Source of the DNA: Paenibacillus sp. UNC499MF
Lineage (GTDB): Bacteria > Bacillota > Bacilli > Paenibacillales > NBRC-103111
NCBI RefSeq assembly: GCF_900107975.1
Contig: NZ_FNVF01000011.1
Coordinates: forward strand, 95,828-159,827
Direction of reading: 5' to 3'
DNA length: 64,000 nt
Below, one piece after another: positions 12,998 to 21,747 of the stretch. The position numbers were made by a program, and so were the translations under genes. Within the stretch, counting starts at the first letter, position 1; each line of letters starts with the position of its first letter. The notes under the pieces were generated by a model, which was not told the DNA's origin, made no database searches, and was given only the letters and a program-made list of their open reading frames with translations.

Positions 12998-14191
12998 GTG
13001 GGGGAAAAGGAATCACGGAAAAAAAACGGTGTCCGGGAAGTTCCGACTGTCGGGGAAAAGCAGGAAAACCGGAAAATTCGGGAAGACCGGGCGAAGCTGG
13101 AGGAGCGAGAGGTGCTAAAGGGAAACCAGGAAGCGCGAGAAGCACAAGAAGCACAAGAAGCACAAGAAGCACAAGAAGCACAAGAAGCTCGTACCTGGGA
13201 ACTTCAAGAAGCTAGGGGGACCGGAGAAACCCGGGAAGCTCGCGAAGGCTGGGAAACCCGAGAAACCCGAGAAACACGAGAAGCCCGGCTTAACCGGATG
13301 CAGAGGACGCATCTGGAGCAGGTAATCGGAATCGGCAGCCTTATTACGATGTACTATTTCGAGCATGGGAAGGACTACGTGTTCCGGGGGGAGCGGCATA
13401 ACTTCTGGGAACTTCTGTACGTGGATAAGGGAGAGATCGAGGTAGTGACCGATGACGCGGGACACGTTCTGAAGCAGGGCATGGCCATTTTCCACGAGCC
13501 GAACGAGTTTCACAGCTTCCGTGCCGCTCCTGGCAGGGCGCCCAATGTCATCGTGCTCACCTTTGACTGCGATTCCCCGGCTATGAACGCTTTCGCGGGC
13601 GGGGTGCTGAGGCTGGAGGACGAAGAAAGGGAGCTGCTGGCCCGGATAATCCAGGAAGGGGAGAACGCGTTCGAATTTCCGTTCGAGTATCCGCTGAAGC
13701 GAAGAGAGAAGGCTCCGCCGGGTTCCGAGCAGCTGCTGCGCTGCTATTTCGAAGCGTTCCTGATCCGGCTGCTGCGGCGGGCGCCGTTTGACCGGGAAGC
13801 TTCGCGGGCTCAGATGTCTTCTCCGGCACGACAGAAAAATCAGGAGGAGCTGGCGGCCAGAGTGATTGCCTACATGGAAGCGAATGTGGAATCACCCGTT
13901 ACGCTGGATGAAATTTCGCGTCATTTTCATATCGGCAAAACGGTGCTCAAAGAGACCTTTAAAGCGCAGACCGGTACAACCGTCATGAAATATTGGAGCC
14001 GGATCAAGATCGGCCAGGCCAAGCTCCTTATCCGGGAAGAAACGTGCAATTTTACGGAAATCGCCGGGAGGCTCGGATTCGGGAGCGTGCATCACTTTTC
14101 CAAAACGTTCAAGAAAGCGTCCGGCATGAGTCCGTCCGAGTATGCCCGTTCCGTGAAGGCGAGAATGGGACCGGCAGACGGCCGGGTGTAA
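12998..14191 (+). CDS. AraC-family regulator with repeat-rich N-terminal extension
   Basis: Transcription factor of 397 residues. Residues about 100-200 form a cupin-like sensing domain (HNFWELLYVDKGEIEV), and the last 105 residues hold two helix-turn-helix motifs (IGKTVLKETFKAQTG and SVHHFSKTFKKASGMSPSEY). The first 100 residues are an odd Glu/Arg/Gln-rich extension containing EAQ and TRE triplets. GTG 12998 has a textbook GAGGAGGTGAC at 12984-12992, so the extension is probably translated. An internal ATG at 13298 would give a family-sized protein. It is divergent from the Gfo/Idh/MocA gene, a common regulator-target layout. Confidence 0.88.
   Translation: MGEKESRKKNGVREVPTVGEKQENRKIREDRAKLEEREVLKGNQEAREAQEAQEAQEAQEAQEARTWELQEARGTGETREAREGWETRETRETREARLNRMQRTHLEQVIGIGSLITMYYFEHGKDYVFRGERHNFWELLYVDKGEIEVVTDDAGHVLKQGMAIFHEPNEFHSFRAAPGRAPNVIVLTFDCDSPAMNAFAGGVLRLEDEERELLARIIQEGENAFEFPFEYPLKRREKAPPGSEQLLRCYFEAFLIRLLRRAPFDREASRAQMSSPARQKNQEELAARVIAYMEANVESPVTLDEISRHFHIGKTVLKETFKAQTGTTVMKYWSRIKIGQAKLLIREETCNFTEIAGRLGFGSVHHFSKTFKKASGMSPSEYARSVKARMGPADGRV
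13139..13183 (+). repeat. Five tandem 9-bp repeats (GAAGCACAA)
   Basis: Five identical copies encode EAQ five times, in frame with the AraC gene (from codon 48). Related 9-base units CGAGAAACC/CGAGAAACA recur near 13257-13290. Such exact short repeats are prone to copy-number change by strand slippage. Confidence 0.95.
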
Positions 14192-15673: not shown

Positions 15674-15811
15674 CGGACTGTGCTACATTTAATTCGTACA
15701 TACATTGTGGACAATTTAATTTTTGCAAATCAAAATAAAAGCGGGTACCTGTACCGCGCCGGGCAGCCGCCCCGGGAGTGCAGGACCGCAAGAACACGGA
15801 GGAAGTAGACG

Positions 15812-16357
15812 ATGAGCGTATACCCTTATTCGGCCAGAAGCATTCGAGGAACGGAAACGAAGCTTGAAGAGTACAAAGGCAAGGTGCTGGTGATCGTCAA
15901 TACCGCAAGCCAATGCGGGTTTACGTCGCAGTACGCCGATCTGCAGAAGCTGTATGAAAAATACCGCGATCAGGGACTGGTCGTTCTCGGATTTCCGTGC
16001 AACCAGTTCGGCGGGCAGGAGCCGGGCACGAACGAGGAAGTAGACACCTTCTGCCAGCTCAACTACGGCGTTACGTTCCCACTGTTCGAGAAGATCGACG
16101 TGCGCGGTGAAGAGAAGCACCCGCTTTTCGCTTACTTGACCGAACAAGCTCCTTTCGAAGGCTTTGACCTGAATCATCCGAGCGGTAAAATGCTTAACGC
16201 GTTTCTGTCGGAAAAGCAGCCGCATCTGCTGGAGGGCGACGATGTGAAGTGGAATTTCACCAAGTTCCTCATCGATCGCGAGGGGAATGTGGTGAAGCGC
16301 TTCGAGCCGGGCGTCGATCCTCTGGATATGCAGCCTGCCGTCGAAGCGGTCCTGTAA
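15812..16357 (+). CDS. Glutathione peroxidase-family thiol peroxidase
   Basis: Cytosolic peroxidase of 181 residues that reduces peroxides, in bacteria of this kind usually with thioredoxin or bacillithiol rather than glutathione. The peroxidatic Cys is in NTASQCGFTSQY (about residue 36), with Gln in NQFGGQEPGTNEE and Trp in KWNFTKFLIDREG completing the active site. Cys, not selenocysteine, is encoded. The start follows GGAGGA. It corresponds to Bacillus BsaA-type proteins. Confidence 0.95.
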   Translation: MSVYPYSARSIRGTETKLEEYKGKVLVIVNTASQCGFTSQYADLQKLYEKYRDQGLVVLGFPCNQFGGQEPGTNEEVDTFCQLNYGVTFPLFEKIDVRGEEKHPLFAYLTEQAPFEGFDLNHPSGKMLNAFLSEKQPHLLEGDDVKWNFTKFLIDREGNVVKRFEPGVDPLDMQPAVEAVL

Positions 16358-16431
16358 CAAACGCGGACGCGGGCTTAGGATCGAGCCTGGGAGCACCTTG
16401 ACTGCCGGAGGGATCTTATCCGGCCCAAAAG

Positions 16432-16460
16432 AAAAGGAACCTACGTCGTAGGTTCCTTTT
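16432..16460. terminator. Bidirectional terminator
   Basis: AAAAGGAACCTA (16432-16443) and TAGGTTCCTTTT (16449-16460) are perfect arms around CGTCG. The element overlaps the last codons of the convergent exonuclease gene. Confidence 0.9.
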
Positions 16461-17109
16461 GTGCGAACAGGGCCAGCTTTTCGAACGGGTTGTTCGTGAA
16501 GCTGTCGCCGGTTTTGTACACGACCTCCGTCGTATACAGGGGAAGATCCCCCGCCTGATTCCGCTCCAGCACGAGCCGGTCGTGCAGATGGATGAACAGC
16601 TTGGCGGTATTCATCGCATCGTCCAGGGCCCGGTGATGGGAGCCGTCGAACGGGATATTCCAGTATTCGAGGGCGGTTTTGAGGCCCATCTGCTGCTGCT
16701 TCTCCTGCTGGACGAGTCCGGCCATGAGCTTTTGCAGGTTGTTGTGGTTGCAGATCCAATCGGTTTTGACGCCGTGCATCCGGCAGTCGCTGCCAAGCTG
16801 GATCAGGTCGTCGGGACCCCACGCGCACAGATAGTATTCTCCGTCTCCGATCCACTCCAGCAGACGTTCCAGTACGAGCGGCCAGGACTCCGCCGATTGC
16901 AGATCGCTTTGCTTAATTCCCGTCAGGGCCTGGGTAGAAGCGGAAACAACCGGGGACCGGTCTGGTTTTACAAAAGACTGGAACGTGCCGGTTACGGCAG
17001 GTTTGCCGTCCGTGAATTCAACGGCCGCCGCTCCGATTTCGATAATTTCCGAAACGTGGATCTTTTTGCGGGTAACGGTCATCTCCAGATCATACACAAT
17101 TACTTTCAA
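16441..17109 (-). CDS. DEDDh-type 3'-5' exonuclease
   Basis: Protein of 222 residues with the RNase T/DnaQ exonuclease fold. The first motif is YDLEMT (residues 6-11, Asp and Glu as metal ligands), the middle region has an Asp near WGPDD, and the last motif is HHRALDDAMNTA (catalytic His and Asp). Bacillus KapD, an inhibitor of the sporulation kinase pathway, belongs to this group, but that role cannot be assumed here. The start is TTG 17109 behind AGGAGGTGAG. It lies 13 bp after the MBL gene and is probably co-transcribed. Confidence 0.87.
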   Translation of the reverse strand: MKVIVYDLEMTVTRKKIHVSEIIEIGAAAVEFTDGKPAVTGTFQSFVKPDRSPVVSASTQALTGIKQSDLQSAESWPLVLERLLEWIGDGEYYLCAWGPDDLIQLGSDCRMHGVKTDWICNHNNLQKLMAGLVQQEKQQQMGLKTALEYWNIPFDGSHHRALDDAMNTAKLFIHLHDRLVLERNQAGDLPLYTTEVVYKTGDSFTNNPFEKLALFAQKEPTT

Positions 17110-17122
17110 AGAAACTCACCTC

Positions 17123-17872
17123 CTAGAGAGAAACCCTCATCATATCGTGTGCCAGCTTCACACCGGGTGTGCCGGTTTTTTTATATTGGGCTAAAACCTC
17201 TTCGTAAGGCTCGTCATCCGTAAGATGAATGGCGATCACTTGAGGGATCCGGGCGACCGGATAGTAGGTCAGAATGCCCTCCAGGCTGGTATGGATGCTC
17301 ATATCGCCCCGTGCCTGCGTCGCTTCATGGATCAGAACGTCTATCCGGGGCTGGCTGCGTATCCATTCGCTCGGCGCCGTGTCCGCCGAATAGATAAGCA
17401 CCTTGTCACCGGATTCGACCCGGATGCCGGACGTGGAGCCCGCATGCAGGCTCGTGAAGGCGGAGACGGTCATGTCGCCCTGCGCGAACAGGGTTCCGGG
17501 CTCTGCGCAGTCGAAAGGCCGCACCGTGATTTCGAAGCCGATCGGCCATTCGTCCGTCCGGTACGCGCGGAGAATGTCGCCGAGCTGGTCCCGGTGATCC
17601 TGCGGGCAGCAGATGATGAGCGGCTCTTTTCTTTTGCCGAGCCACATGCCCCAGAGCAGAGAAGGGAGACCGAAAATATGGTCGATGTGGAAATGGGTAA
17701 GAATGACCCCCCGGATGGACTGCAGCGGAATTTCAGCCTGCTTCAGTTTGCCGAGCGGATTGCCGCCCACGTCTATCATCCAATTGCCTTCCTCATGCTG
17801 AAGAAGCAGGTAAGTGTTGTCCCTTTCTCTGCTTCCCGAAGCGCTGGCACTTCCTAATATAAGAACGTCCAC
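17123..17872 (-). CDS. MBL-fold metallohydrolase, RNase Z-like
   Basis: Zinc hydrolase of 249 residues. The metal-binding HxHxDH appears as THFHIDHIFGL (about residues 60-70). Further ligands are His in SLHAG, Asp in YSADTAP and His in AIHLTDDE. The fold is that of RNase Z/ElaC and arylsulfatase-like enzymes, but the long RNase Z exosite arm is not evident, so the substrate is open. The start is GTG 17872 after GGAGGA. It is the first gene of a two-gene unit with the exonuclease. Confidence 0.88.
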   Translation of the reverse strand: MDVLILGSASASGSRERDNTYLLLQHEEGNWMIDVGGNPLGKLKQAEIPLQSIRGVILTHFHIDHIFGLPSLLWGMWLGKRKEPLIICCPQDHRDQLGDILRAYRTDEWPIGFEITVRPFDCAEPGTLFAQGDMTVSAFTSLHAGSTSGIRVESGDKVLIYSADTAPSEWIRSQPRIDVLIHEATQARGDMSIHTSLEGILTYYPVARIPQVIAIHLTDDEPYEEVLAQYKKTGTPGVKLAHDMMRVSL

Positions 17873-18091
17873 GGTGTTTTCCTCCGATCTGTTTGTCCCA
17901 AGTACTTATTAATGTATCGGCAATCGGCGGAATGTGCAAGAAAATCCTTGAAGGGGCGCCGTTTTCGGCTCTTCGGCCCTTGCAGCGGATTTTCAGGAAG
18001 AAAATTTGCGCTTTCTGCCCTCCGGTGTTTTGACGCCTCTTGCAAAATGGTAAGCTTAGAACAAACGGAACCGTTATAACGGAGGCTGCGT

Positions 18092-18424
18092 ATGACCATT
18101 TATAACAAACTCGTTCGGGATCAAATACCGGCAATCATCCGGGAAAACGGACAAAACTGCCGCACGCGTGTGCTCGGCGAAAAAGAATACAGACTTGAAC
18201 TGAGGCGGAAGCTCGGGGAAGAGTTAAAGGAATATCTGGAAGCCGGAGACGATGCTCATGCCGTGGAAGAGCTGGCCGATCTGCTGGAGCTTTTGCATGC
18301 CTTGGCGGATATGCACGGTACCTCCCCGGAAGAACTGGAGGCTGTACGCAGGCGGAAAGCGGACAAGCGCGGAGGGTTCCGTGATAGGATCTATCTGCTG
18401 GAAACCGAAGAGCAGGAGAAATAG
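18092..18424 (+). CDS. MazG/HisE-like pyrophosphohydrolase
   Basis: Small all-alpha protein of 110 residues with the start MTIYNKLVRDQIPAII and the acidic motifs EELKEYLEA and EELADLLELLHAL, which bind Mg2+ in the MazG/HisE superfamily. Such enzymes cleave nucleoside triphosphates or phosphoribosyl-ATP. The isolated context, with no his genes nearby, suggests a house-cleaning role. The start follows GGAGG. Confidence 0.82.
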   Translation: MTIYNKLVRDQIPAIIRENGQNCRTRVLGEKEYRLELRRKLGEELKEYLEAGDDAHAVEELADLLELLHALADMHGTSPEELEAVRRRKADKRGGFRDRIYLLETEEQEK

Positions 18425-18571
18425 AAGGCCATACAGCGATATTTGTCGAATGAAATCATGCTTTGTCATTTATTTTTCCAAAGAGGCAGGAAATATAAGT
18501 GTATTTGGCGAATTTTGTCATATCAGGTAAAAGTCTATTCTTTTCCATTTCTCTTCAGAGGTGCATACATA

Positions 18572-20476
18572 ATGACCAAATCAAGAGCAACGGCGGTCCT
18601 GGCGTCCGTCTATATCGGGATCGTGCTGCTTGCCCTGCTGTTCGTCCCGGCCACGGCGCGGGGGCAATCTCCCCTGGATACGATCAAGATTACCGAATGG
18701 GCATATAAATGGGACAGTCAGGGGACTGGCTTTGACGAGACACAGGCTCCTGCCAACACTGACGGATGGATGACCGCCAACGAGAAGGGAGACATGCCGG
18801 TCAAGCCGGAAGGCGTTTCCGCACTCTGGTTGAAAATCGAGCTGCCCCGCCTGGAGTGGGACGAGCCGGGCATGCTGATCGGAAAACTGTACGGCCACCG
18901 CATTGAAGTTTTTACGGATGAACGTAAAATCTACAAAGCGGGACACACGTACGTGTACGATAAGAACCGGCTGCTGATTCCGCTCAGTGCCAAAGACTCG
19001 GGCAAAACGGTTTATATTCATATCGAAACGAACAGCGACCGGATCGGGCTCCAGAAAAACGTGAAAGTCGGAGACTATCAGGCCCTGCTTCCAGGCTATG
19101 TCAAAACGAATCTGACCGATGTTTTACTGGGCTGCGCCTTCGTGTTCATTGCCGTTCTGATGCTGATCTGCACCGTATTTCTGAACCGCGGGCAGCTTGC
19201 CAAATGGCTCTCGCTCAGTCTCGTCATTCTGGCCATCGGAATGCTCATGATCGGGTCTTCCCAGTTTACGTATACGTTTTTTGAAGATCAGGGCAAGTGG
19301 ATCGAAAGCTTGTTCGACCTTGCGCTGTTTGTATTTTTGCCGACTCTGACGGTATATTTCGAACAAATATTAGGCCACGGTACCTGGTCGATGCTGACGA
19401 AATACCGCTGGTTCCAGATCGGATTCTCGGTTCTCTGTATTTTGTTCCTGCTGGTCAACCATTTGGCTTCCTACCGGTATGACAAAGTTTATTATTTCGT
19501 AACGGTTACGATGCTGGGGGTTACGATGCTGATCCAATTCGTACTGCTGATCGGAATGGCCATCGCTCACGCGGCCAAGGGCAGCAAGGACGGGGTGACT
19601 TTAACGACGGGAATCGGCCTGTTCGCGGCATCCGGAATCGTCGATCTGCTCGTATTTTATGCCAAGAACGAACAGTACGAATTTGTTTACTGGAAGTTTG
19701 GGATCGTGTGCTTCGTGACGTCGCTGATCATTATTCTCGGGAGAGGATTTGCCCGCGATCACGAGAAAATCGTGAGATATTCCAAGGAGCTGGTGATGTA
19801 CAATAATGAGCTTCAGCGAGCGGAGAAAATGGAGATCATAAGCGACCTCGCCGCCTCCGTGGCTCATGAGGTGCGCAACCCTCTGCAGGTGACGAGAGGT
19901 TTCCTTCAATTGGCCGCAGAGAAGCTGGATCAGAAGGAAAAAGGGTACATGAACATGGCGATCGAGGAACTCGACAGGGCCTCCAACATCATTACGGACT
20001 TCCTTACGTTCGCGAAGCCGCAGCTGGAACATATCACGTCTCTTAATGTCTGTCAGGAACTGAAGCAAATCGAGGGCATTCTGGTTCCATTGGCTAATCT
20101 GCAAGGCGGTGAAATCACGCTGGAGGTGCCGGAGGATCTGTACATTGAGGGCAATTCTTCGAAATTCAAGCAGGCGTTTATTAATATCATTAAGAATAGT
20201 ATCGAAGCGCTGGACGGACAGGGTCAGATCCGGATCTGGGCGTATAAAGAGAAAAATGAAGTGTGGATTCATATCCGGGATAACGGAGAGGGGATGGAAA
20301 CAAAAGAGCTCTCCAAACTTGGAGAGCCGTACTTTTCAACGAAAACCAAGGGGACTGGCCTGGGTCTTATGGTCACCTTCCGAATCATCGAGGTCATGCA
20401 TGGCCGTCTGGAATTTAAGAGCGAGAAAGGTGTCGGCACTGAAGCGATCGTCCGGTTTCCTTTGATACTGGGCTAG
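18572..20476 (+). CDS. 7TM-type orphan sensor histidine kinase
   Basis: Membrane kinase of 634 residues. A signal helix (about 10-30) is followed by an extracellular beta-rich domain (about 35-180, 7TMR-DISM-like), seven hydrophobic helices (about 182-390) and a cytoplasmic kinase. The phospho-acceptor is His432 in SVAHEVRNPLQV, with N-box IINIIKNSIEALDG, G1 IRDNGEGM and G2 TKGTGLGLMV. The HisKA type resembles KinB/KinC sporulation kinases. No response regulator is adjacent, so phosphate may go to a distant one such as Spo0F (inference). ATG 18572 follows AGAGGTG. The stop lies 15 bp from the stop of the convergent NHLP-like peptide gene. Confidence 0.9.
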   Translation: MTKSRATAVLASVYIGIVLLALLFVPATARGQSPLDTIKITEWAYKWDSQGTGFDETQAPANTDGWMTANEKGDMPVKPEGVSALWLKIELPRLEWDEPGMLIGKLYGHRIEVFTDERKIYKAGHTYVYDKNRLLIPLSAKDSGKTVYIHIETNSDRIGLQKNVKVGDYQALLPGYVKTNLTDVLLGCAFVFIAVLMLICTVFLNRGQLAKWLSLSLVILAIGMLMIGSSQFTYTFFEDQGKWIESLFDLALFVFLPTLTVYFEQILGHGTWSMLTKYRWFQIGFSVLCILFLLVNHLASYRYDKVYYFVTVTMLGVTMLIQFVLLIGMAIAHAAKGSKDGVTLTTGIGLFAASGIVDLLVFYAKNEQYEFVYWKFGIVCFVTSLIIILGRGFARDHEKIVRYSKELVMYNNELQRAEKMEIISDLAASVAHEVRNPLQVTRGFLQLAAEKLDQKEKGYMNMAIEELDRASNIITDFLTFAKPQLEHITSLNVCQELKQIEGILVPLANLQGGEITLEVPEDLYIEGNSSKFKQAFINIIKNSIEALDGQGQIRIWAYKEKNEVWIHIRDNGEGMETKELSKLGEPYFSTKTKGTGLGLMVTFRIIEVMHGRLEFKSEKGVGTEAIVRFPLILG

Positions 20477-20491
20477 CCGGTTTGTAGGCGA

Positions 20492-20740
20492 TTACCAGAC
20501 GCTGTTCGGGTCGGAATCGGCGCTGAGTACTTCAGCCGGATTGGGAGGAATTACGAGAAAGTAACGGCCCGGAGCTTCGTCCAGAACCTTTACGTCCGCC
20601 GCTTCCGGCAGCTCGATGTCAAAGGCTTGCTTTAAGGCTCCCTTAGGGTCGTTCAGCAACGCTTTCTTGAATTCGGGGTCCGCCCAAGCTTTCTCAATGA
20701 TTTGATTTTTTAAAATCTCTTCTGCTGACACAAGGCTCAT
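20492..20740 (-). CDS. NHLP-leader-like peptide, candidate RiPP or signal precursor
   Basis: Peptide of 82 residues. Residues about 6-66 follow the pattern of nitrile-hydratase-alpha-like (NHLP) leader peptides: helical IIEKAWADPEFKKALLNDP, then LPEAADVKVLDEAPG and FLVIPP. Only 16 residues remain after that, ending in ADSDPNSVW, so the last residue is Trp. NHLP leaders guide modification of a short C-terminal core. The gene directly follows a class I isoprenoid synthase-like gene on the same strand, the order of comQ-comX, where ComX Trp is prenylated. ATG 20740 abuts GAGAGG; GTG 20731 has better spacing and may be the real start. The family match is from memory of its motif pattern; the product is inference. 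Confidence 0.75.
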   Translation of the reverse strand: MSLVSAEEILKNQIIEKAWADPEFKKALLNDPKGALKQAFDIELPEAADVKVLDEAPGRYFLVIPPNPAEVLSADSDPNSVW

Positions 20741-20773
20741 CCTCTCAAAGTAAAGGGTTCATATTCCGCCCTG

Positions 20774-20803
20774 AGTATAGCATGTGCATAGGTCTAATGT
20801 CAT
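20774..20803 (-). promoter_or_regulatory. Candidate own promoter of the NHLP-like peptide gene
   Basis: On the minus strand, -35 ATGACA (forward 20798-20803) and -10 TATACT (forward 20774-20779) are separated by 18 bp. The -35 box overlaps the stop of the upstream isoprenoid synthase gene. The peptide could thus be made in excess over the enzyme, as usual for modified-peptide precursors. Confidence 0.55.
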
Positions 20804-21747
20804 TAAGATTTGTTTCTTTTTGACAGAAGGTAGGTAAATCCTCCTAGTTCCAAAAGTCCCCTTTCTTTGTCAATCCGGGAGGCTTCGGACAGAAGGTCAT
20901 CCAATAGGGATTGATGAAAGGCGTCCATATGCGGGGCATGGAACAAGCCCGTCGGGGCACCGCCGAACCAGGCCGATGCAGCCTCGGCATAATCGCGCAG
21001 GCAGCCGTGAACGAACACGGCTTGTTTGACGTTGTCTTCCGTAAGCGGCTCATCCGCCTTCAAGCCTCTTCGTGTCCGGATCAGGGAGAGGAGGCAGTTG
21101 TAGCTGCCCGTCTCCAGGTCTTCCCGCCAGTCGGCCCAGTCATCGGCCATTTGCAGGGCCAGCAGCGTATGATCGGTCTGCCGTGAGAACGGCCCAATCA
21201 GCTCCTCCTGACCGCTTAGCAGCAGGGCGCCCGTACTTGCCAGCTTAACGGGAGCGGCTTTATGCGCGATGCGAACGGGATCATCGCGGAAATAATCCGC
21301 TTCGTTCTCCCGGGTTACACATTCCGCCCACTGCCCCAGCCAGGTGTCCGCGTGCGCCCAGAACGGGGAATCGGAAGAGAAGTACCCCCGGTAGAGACGG
21401 GAATATTCGGCCTGGAACAGATTCGAGAGGGGCAGCATCGTCCGGCGCTCTTCCGCTCCCGTATCGGTGTCCATGAGATCGTCCTGGACGAAAAAATGAA
21501 GCATCACGAACACATTGGCTAACGAAAGCGTTCTGTACGTACCGGCGGGGAGTTTGGTCTGTTCCCTCAGCCAGAACGGCAGCAGATAGCAGATGTAGTT
21601 TTTCGTGCTGTTTTTTTTCAGGGGATGAAACTTGTCCAGAAAGTCCAGTCCTGCCTTGTTCAGCGGGGCGGGAAATGCGGAAATCCGGCGCACCGCCTCA
21701 TCGAAAACAAGCTCCAGCTCTTCTTTGTAGTCCGTGAACCATTTCAT
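20803..21747 (-). CDS. Class I isoprenoid synthase-fold enzyme
   Basis: All-helical protein of 314 residues with both Asp-rich motifs of prenyl-diphosphate synthases: DDLMD (89-93) and DDWAD (202-206). These bind Mg-diphosphate. Overall divergence from housekeeping FPP/GGPP synthases is high, and the short length and peptide-gene neighbour recall ComQ, which prenylates ComX. The enzyme may transfer or make a prenyl chain for the downstream peptide (inference). ATG 21747 is chosen because AGGTG precedes it; a longer frame to 21834 lacks support. A lone terpene cyclase or polyprenyl synthase is the main alternative. Confidence 0.82.
   Translation of the reverse strand: MKWFTDYKEELELVFDEAVRRISAFPAPLNKAGLDFLDKFHPLKKNSTKNYICYLLPFWLREQTKLPAGTYRTLSLANVFVMLHFFVQDDLMDTDTGAEERRTMLPLSNLFQAEYSRLYRGYFSSDSPFWAHADTWLGQWAECVTRENEADYFRDDPVRIAHKAAPVKLASTGALLLSGQEELIGPFSRQTDHTLLALQMADDWADWREDLETGSYNCLLSLIRTRRGLKADEPLTEDNVKQAVFVHGCLRDYAEAASAWFGGAPTGLFHAPHMDAFHQSLLDDLLSEASRIDKERGLLELGGFTYLLSKRNKS

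Follow-up and report, generated by a model that had tools for sequence, protein, structure and literature searches.

The window (the whole stretch of 64,000 nucleotides analysed here), which comes from a soil Paenibacillus, harbors a gene trio that is best read as an orthologue of PalQXP, an assignment resting on the make-up of the locus and the numbering of the enzyme motifs. PalQXP in turn probably represents a prenyl-peptide signalling system, whose receptor kinase PalP would feed the Spo0F/Spo0A phosphorelay. If this is true, a private lipopeptide signal in parallel to ComQXPA gates the onset of sporulation, and the ComX principle has been invented a second time, on a different output. What is at stake is the role of the prenylated peptide, since most Paenibacillus, agricultural strains included, may use the signal to decide on sporulation.

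Organization of the locus and its known counterparts

The gene palQ (20803..21747, minus strand) encodes a putative peptide prenyltransferase of 314 aa that resembles trans-isoprenyl-diphosphate synthases (trans-IDS), as judged from ORFs, alignment, AlphaFold modelling and motif numbering against PMC10853753. Its ATG is located at 21747, the coding sequence extends down to 20806 and the stop codon to 20803; an alternative in-frame TTG would give 343 aa. The gene palX (20492..20740, minus strand) encodes an NHLP-type precursor of 82 aa (ORF, TIGR03793), and palP (18572..20476, plus strand) a membrane histidine kinase of 634 aa (ORF, domain search, PDB sequence search, AlphaFold). palX and palP are convergent, with their stop codons 15 bp apart. 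The original prediction of a 314-aa enzyme with DDLMD and DDWAD motifs, followed on the same strand by an 82-aa peptide with an NHLP leader and a terminal Trp, is borne out by the minus-strand ORFs and by a TIGR03793 score of 63.8 bits, which exceeds the curated cut-off of 50.9. Its general idea of a ComQ-like prenyltransferase and an NHLP precursor beside a KinB-like kinase is compatible with every test made, but the system is not new as had been claimed, because the trio has been published for Paenibacillus alvei (PMC10853753).

The P. alvei cluster comprises the histidine kinase PalP, the NHLP precursor PalX and the isoprenoid-synthase-like PalQ (UniProt K4ZRG6; Miyata, Ito and Fujinami 2023, PMC10853753). 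In vitro, the C-terminal Trp of PalX is the prenylation target of this PalQ, which transfers C5, C10 and C15 but not C20 units; the C5 product was mapped to C3 of the C-terminal Trp, and C-terminal specificity, leader-enhanced binding and release of an octapeptide by lysate were also reported (PMC10853753). Both loci share the gene trio, the positions of the enzyme motifs, an NHLP precursor with C-terminal Trp and the histidine kinase, whereas the core is DNVRRFFW in P. alvei and, by position, DSDPNSVW in the window. As far as its main text was available, PMC10853753 deals with the enzyme only and does not cover the role of the kinase, the promoter or the order-wide distribution; the distribution, the co-occurrence of the genes, the KinB-like core and the sigma-H-like palP promoter described below go beyond it. 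A search of two draws of genomes with the P. alvei core-peptide pattern retrieved no P. alvei locus, and its two matches are due to chance, neither of them lying beside an enzyme, NHLP or kinase gene.

ComQXPA of Bacillus subtilis likewise combines an enzyme of the isoprenoid-synthase fold, Trp prenylation of a small precursor and a neighboring multi-TM histidine kinase. The window locus differs by its convergent kinase gene, the lack of a response regulator gene, the NHLP leader, the position of the Trp at the extreme C-terminus and a kinase with a KinB-like core and an extracellular beta domain. The comQXPA locus consists of four genes on one strand and ComQ matches PF00348 (PMC4008528); neither this gene order nor a PF00348 match of the enzyme was found in the window. 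Two further members of the superfamily, the P domain of ChrPC and Ord1, share with PalQ the Trp acceptor and a Gln that precedes the second Asp motif, but ChrPC falls into another similarity cluster and the substrate of Ord1 is free Trp; in the accessible part of the source neither is described as NHLP-linked (PMC13290415).

The predicted prenyltransferase, its precursor and their distribution

The family alignment places the motifs of the window PalQ at K39, D89-D93 (FARM) and D202-D206 (SARM) with Q199, compared with K39, D89, D93, Q197, D200 and D204 in P. alvei (PMC10853753). The shift of Q199, D202 and D206 corresponds to a 2-residue insertion that is absent from most family members. Searches of Pfam and NCBIfam yielded no family match for this PalQ at E-values up to 1, the PF00348 polyprenyl synthases of the genome sit at other loci, and GGKR-type and RRGxP motifs are not present in the family alignment. 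These are motifs of chain-elongating enzymes, and their lack sets the putative prenyltransferase family apart from chain-elongating synthases. A Gln ahead of the second Asp motif occurs in such synthases too, so the Gln of PalQ is consistent with the assignment without being discriminating. The nearest named relatives are found in Paenibacillus chitinolyticus (85% identical) and Paenibacillus sp. HGH0039 (88%). An AlphaFold model built from 19 relatives (pLDDT 87.6) has a predicted trans-IDS fold and superimposes on solved polyprenyl synthases with Z 22.9 and 3.0 A over 276 residues at 13% identity. Given the weak Foldseek E-values (best 1e-3), this fold assignment is based on the second aligner and the full-length coverage.

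The precursor of the window terminates in DSDPNSVW, and prenylation would be expected at its C-terminal Trp. Across the 77 compared loci, all of which carry the three genes, the Trp always lies within the last three residues (it is the last residue of 57 precursors, the second-last of 17 and the third-last of 3). Addition of Ala after the Trp abolished the activity of P. alvei PalQ (PMC10853753); the 20 of 77 precursors with one or two residues beyond the Trp are thus either trimmed first, or their enzymes differ. The mean pairwise identity of PalX is 0.25 in the core and 0.52 in the leader.

The enzyme is present in 273 of the 395 sampled Paenibacillales genomes. Within the GTDB family of the window strain it was detected in 42 of 104 genomes with a total of 48 genes, and each of the 48 lies no more than 2.5 kb from an NHLP gene, which shows that the pairing is not due to chance; rare adjacency of enzyme and peptide genes, named beforehand as a possible refutation, was not observed. 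The kinase occurs in all 42 enzyme-containing genomes and in two others of the 104, and the corresponding Fisher value of 4e-27 overstates independence because the genomes share ancestry. The gene order palQ>palX><palP is conserved in 74 of the 77 loci; the kinase lies across palQ in two of the others, and palQ is turned in one.

Some arrangements deviate from this standard. Six loci (L052-L057; G043:C5, G048:C25, G032:C40, G041:C49, G038:C74, G044:C1) represent a divergent enzyme branch with 35-38% identity, two to four tandem NHLP precursors in which a single final residue (N, S or T) follows the Trp, and a convergent kinase of their own; their host genomes also hold a standard palQXP locus. 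Two palP-like kinases in tandem accompany one palX at eleven loci (L093, L094, L098, L101, L103, L104, L106, L112, L118, L122, L131). In genomes G052 and G037 a palX-palP pair without local palQ (L058:2484-4760, L059:625-2900) is found together with a single palQ elsewhere and a solo palP-like kinase (L062, L063). A single enzyme that serves two channels would fit these genomes, which have an additional palX-palP pair but no additional enzyme.

The kinase PalP and its promoter

PalP contains HisKA and HATPase_c domains (Pfam). The predicted convergent 7TM kinase was thus confirmed with respect to its kinase domains, and an AlphaFold model (mean pLDDT 77) supports the seven helices, but the Pfam match to 7TMR-DISM_7TM stays below the cut-off (20.6 versus 29 bits). 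In the model, an N-terminal helix is followed by a beta-rich domain (about residues 38-168) and then by seven long helices, of which the last continues into the DHp. Among PDB sequences, the catalytic core matches sporulation kinase B best (3d36; E 5.7e-54, 186 bits), with about 44% identity in the aligned part of the DHp/CA core and a runner-up at 106 bits. The core is accordingly KinB-like at the sequence level, a statement that is limited to solved structures, as few sporulation kinases are in the PDB. A Foldseek search with the model is dominated by the catalytic core and hence uninformative about the beta domain; in it, the E-value of ZraS is slightly better than that of KinB. PalP shares with KinB-type kinases such as the Geobacillus KinB of 3d36 the DHp/CA core and a sigma-H-type promoter as in sporulation-initiation genes, whereas KinB has no prenyl-peptide gene pair. 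KinB is also not known to have a large extracellular beta domain.

The KinB likeness of PalP is no proof of Spo0F as its partner. No response regulator gene adjoins palP, and among the matches listed for the contig the nearest receiver domain lies at a distance of about 20 kb; the genome does encode Spo0A, and the phosphorelay is conserved across 1,460 surveyed Paenibacillus genomes (PMC12826061). A literature search retrieved no functional study of PalP. The mean pairwise identity of the kinase amounts to 0.75 around the phosphorylated His and the DHp, which are nearly invariant, and 0.28 in the extracellular part, and a sensor domain that varies more than the kinase core is usual. Distances based on pairwise identity correlate between all parts of the system; the values for the PalP sensor and the PalX core (0.58-0.60) are no higher than those for sensor and enzyme (0.80-0.83), and a specific co-evolution of PalP and PalX is therefore not supported.

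A predicted sigma-H-type promoter, GCAGGAAAT-N12-GGCGAATTT (18486..18515, plus strand), precedes palP and is the sole exact match in the window to RNAGGAWWW and RNNGAATWW, the consensus of sigma-H (PMC8510167). A second, looser sigma-H-like element (18424..18451, plus strand) is situated upstream of it, and its -10 overlaps the Spo0A-box-like TTGTCGAA (18443-18450). The ribosome-binding-site-like AGAGGTGC (18556..18563, plus strand) belongs to a GAGGTGC motif that recurs 5' of palP across loci. When all 7-mers upstream of palP were counted, TGTCGAA ranked top, being found in 37 of 77 loci against an expectation of 5.8; its orientation is almost always the same, and its distance to the palP start is similar. 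The spacing variants AGG-N18-GAA and AGG-N19-GAA are present in 30 and 42 loci, respectively, where about 5 are expected. A loose sigma-H-like pattern was detected upstream of palP in 66 of the 77 loci; this pattern was written after viewing the aligned sites, and the controls hence weigh more than the count. They amount to 5.8 +- 2.2 in random windows and 6.8 +- 2.2 in shuffles, the reverse strand of the palP regions has 0, and the pattern occurs upstream of only 21 of 248 other flanking genes and in 6 of 77 regions upstream of palQ. It remains in 37 of 46 loci once enzymes more than 65% identical are removed. It is hence palP, and not palQ, that has a sigma-H-like promoter. A Spo0A box was first considered as the main upstream element of palP, but the spacing of TGTCGAA to AGG suits a sigma-H -10 better; a Spo0A box may overlap the sigma-H-like -10.

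As a positive control, spo0A of the same genome (L169) has a sigma-H-like element of the palP type (GAAGGAATTTGATTAGGCGTGTCGAAA) with a TGTCGAA -10, which is located on the sense strand, 89 bases upstream of the start of the spo0A match. Genome-wide, the consensus has 67 matches, compared with 17 for the reversed pattern, and known sigma-H genes did not stand out clearly when the genes downstream of 30 matches were inspected by eye.

Proposed signalling route and alternative explanations

In the first step of the proposed route, the Asp-rich site of PalQ would bind a prenyl diphosphate, which is probably a C10 or C15 compound, and PalX would dock partly via its NHLP leader. PalQ would then alkylate the indole C3 of the C-terminal Trp and generate a pyrroloindole, as its P. 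alvei counterpart does in vitro, and we regard it as very likely that this chemistry also operates in the window strain. A protease of the cell would free a short C-terminal peptide, which is an octapeptide in P. alvei and by position would be about DSDPNSVW here. The flanks of palQXP contain no constant exporter or protease gene, which, like the residues beyond the Trp in 20 of the 77 precursors, weighs against the route. The lipophilic product would signal to PalP, with the divergent extracellular and seven-helix part acting as its sensor, and the KinB-like core would hand the phosphate to Spo0F and then to Spo0A. Sensing of the product by PalP appears reasonably probable, and we place the same degree of trust in a connection of PalP to the phosphorelay; PalP signalling is supported by the resemblance to KinB and the sigma-H-like palP promoter. 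Transcription from this promoter would bring up the receptor as cells pass into stationary phase, like spo0A. The wider proposal that PalQXP represents an order-wide quorum sensing of Paenibacillales, with diverse C-terminally prenylated peptides, cognate 7TM kinases acting directly on Spo0F/Spo0A, sigma-H control and gated sporulation, is tentative and somewhat less probable than its negation.

Of the competing explanations, a conventional polyprenyl synthase or terpene cyclase that is incidentally located beside a peptide gene is highly improbable: the trans-IDS fold and the DDxxD/QxxDDxxD motifs of PalQ would suit it, but such a housekeeping identity was checked and conflicts with the missing PF00348 match and the absent GGKR-type and RRGxP motifs as well as with the invariable NHLP linkage and the peptide prenylation by the described P. 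alvei relative. A more serious competitor, although still unlikely, is that PalQX synthesizes a prenylated RiPP with antibiotic or membrane activity, and that PalP senses the product or envelope stress outside a quorum-sensing or sporulation circuit, with a role in autoregulation or protection. RiPP natural products are indeed the known context of other NHLP precursors (TIGR03793), and the available part of PMC13290415 reports that prenylation by PalQ increases the membrane activity of peptides. However, no immunity, transporter or further biosynthesis gene recurs across lineages in the flanks of palQXP; the widest recurring family reaches nine loci, and other genes recur solely among close relatives. 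The constant company of a kinase with KinB-like core and sigma-H-like promoter also argues against an antibiotic cluster, for which a presence in 273 of 395 genomes would be unusually common.

It is less probable still that PalQX and PalP share a history while PalP senses another ligand, such as a sugar or an envelope component bound by the beta domain, and the peptide acts elsewhere. 7TMR-DISM sensors are often thought to bind small molecules. The beta domain and the seven helices of PalP resemble these sensors according to the weak Pfam match and the AlphaFold model, and solo palP-like kinases (L060, L062, L063) lack palX and palQ in their vicinity. The strict co-occurrence of enzyme and kinase speaks against such a separation, and so do the palX-palP pairs of L058 and L059, whose lack of a local enzyme suggests that the peptide and kinase genes move together. 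We accordingly retain the prenyl-peptide signal as the preferred reading.

Two congeners (G059:C8, G061:C16) retain the left flank of the locus (about 15800-17900 of the window) without palQXP and the right flank at this place, which is indicative of a gain or loss of the palQXP locus within the genus. Further to the left, the frame of an AraC-like regulator (12998-14191, plus strand) begins with long N-terminal EAQ/EAR/ETR repeats of low complexity, and its start may be located further in.
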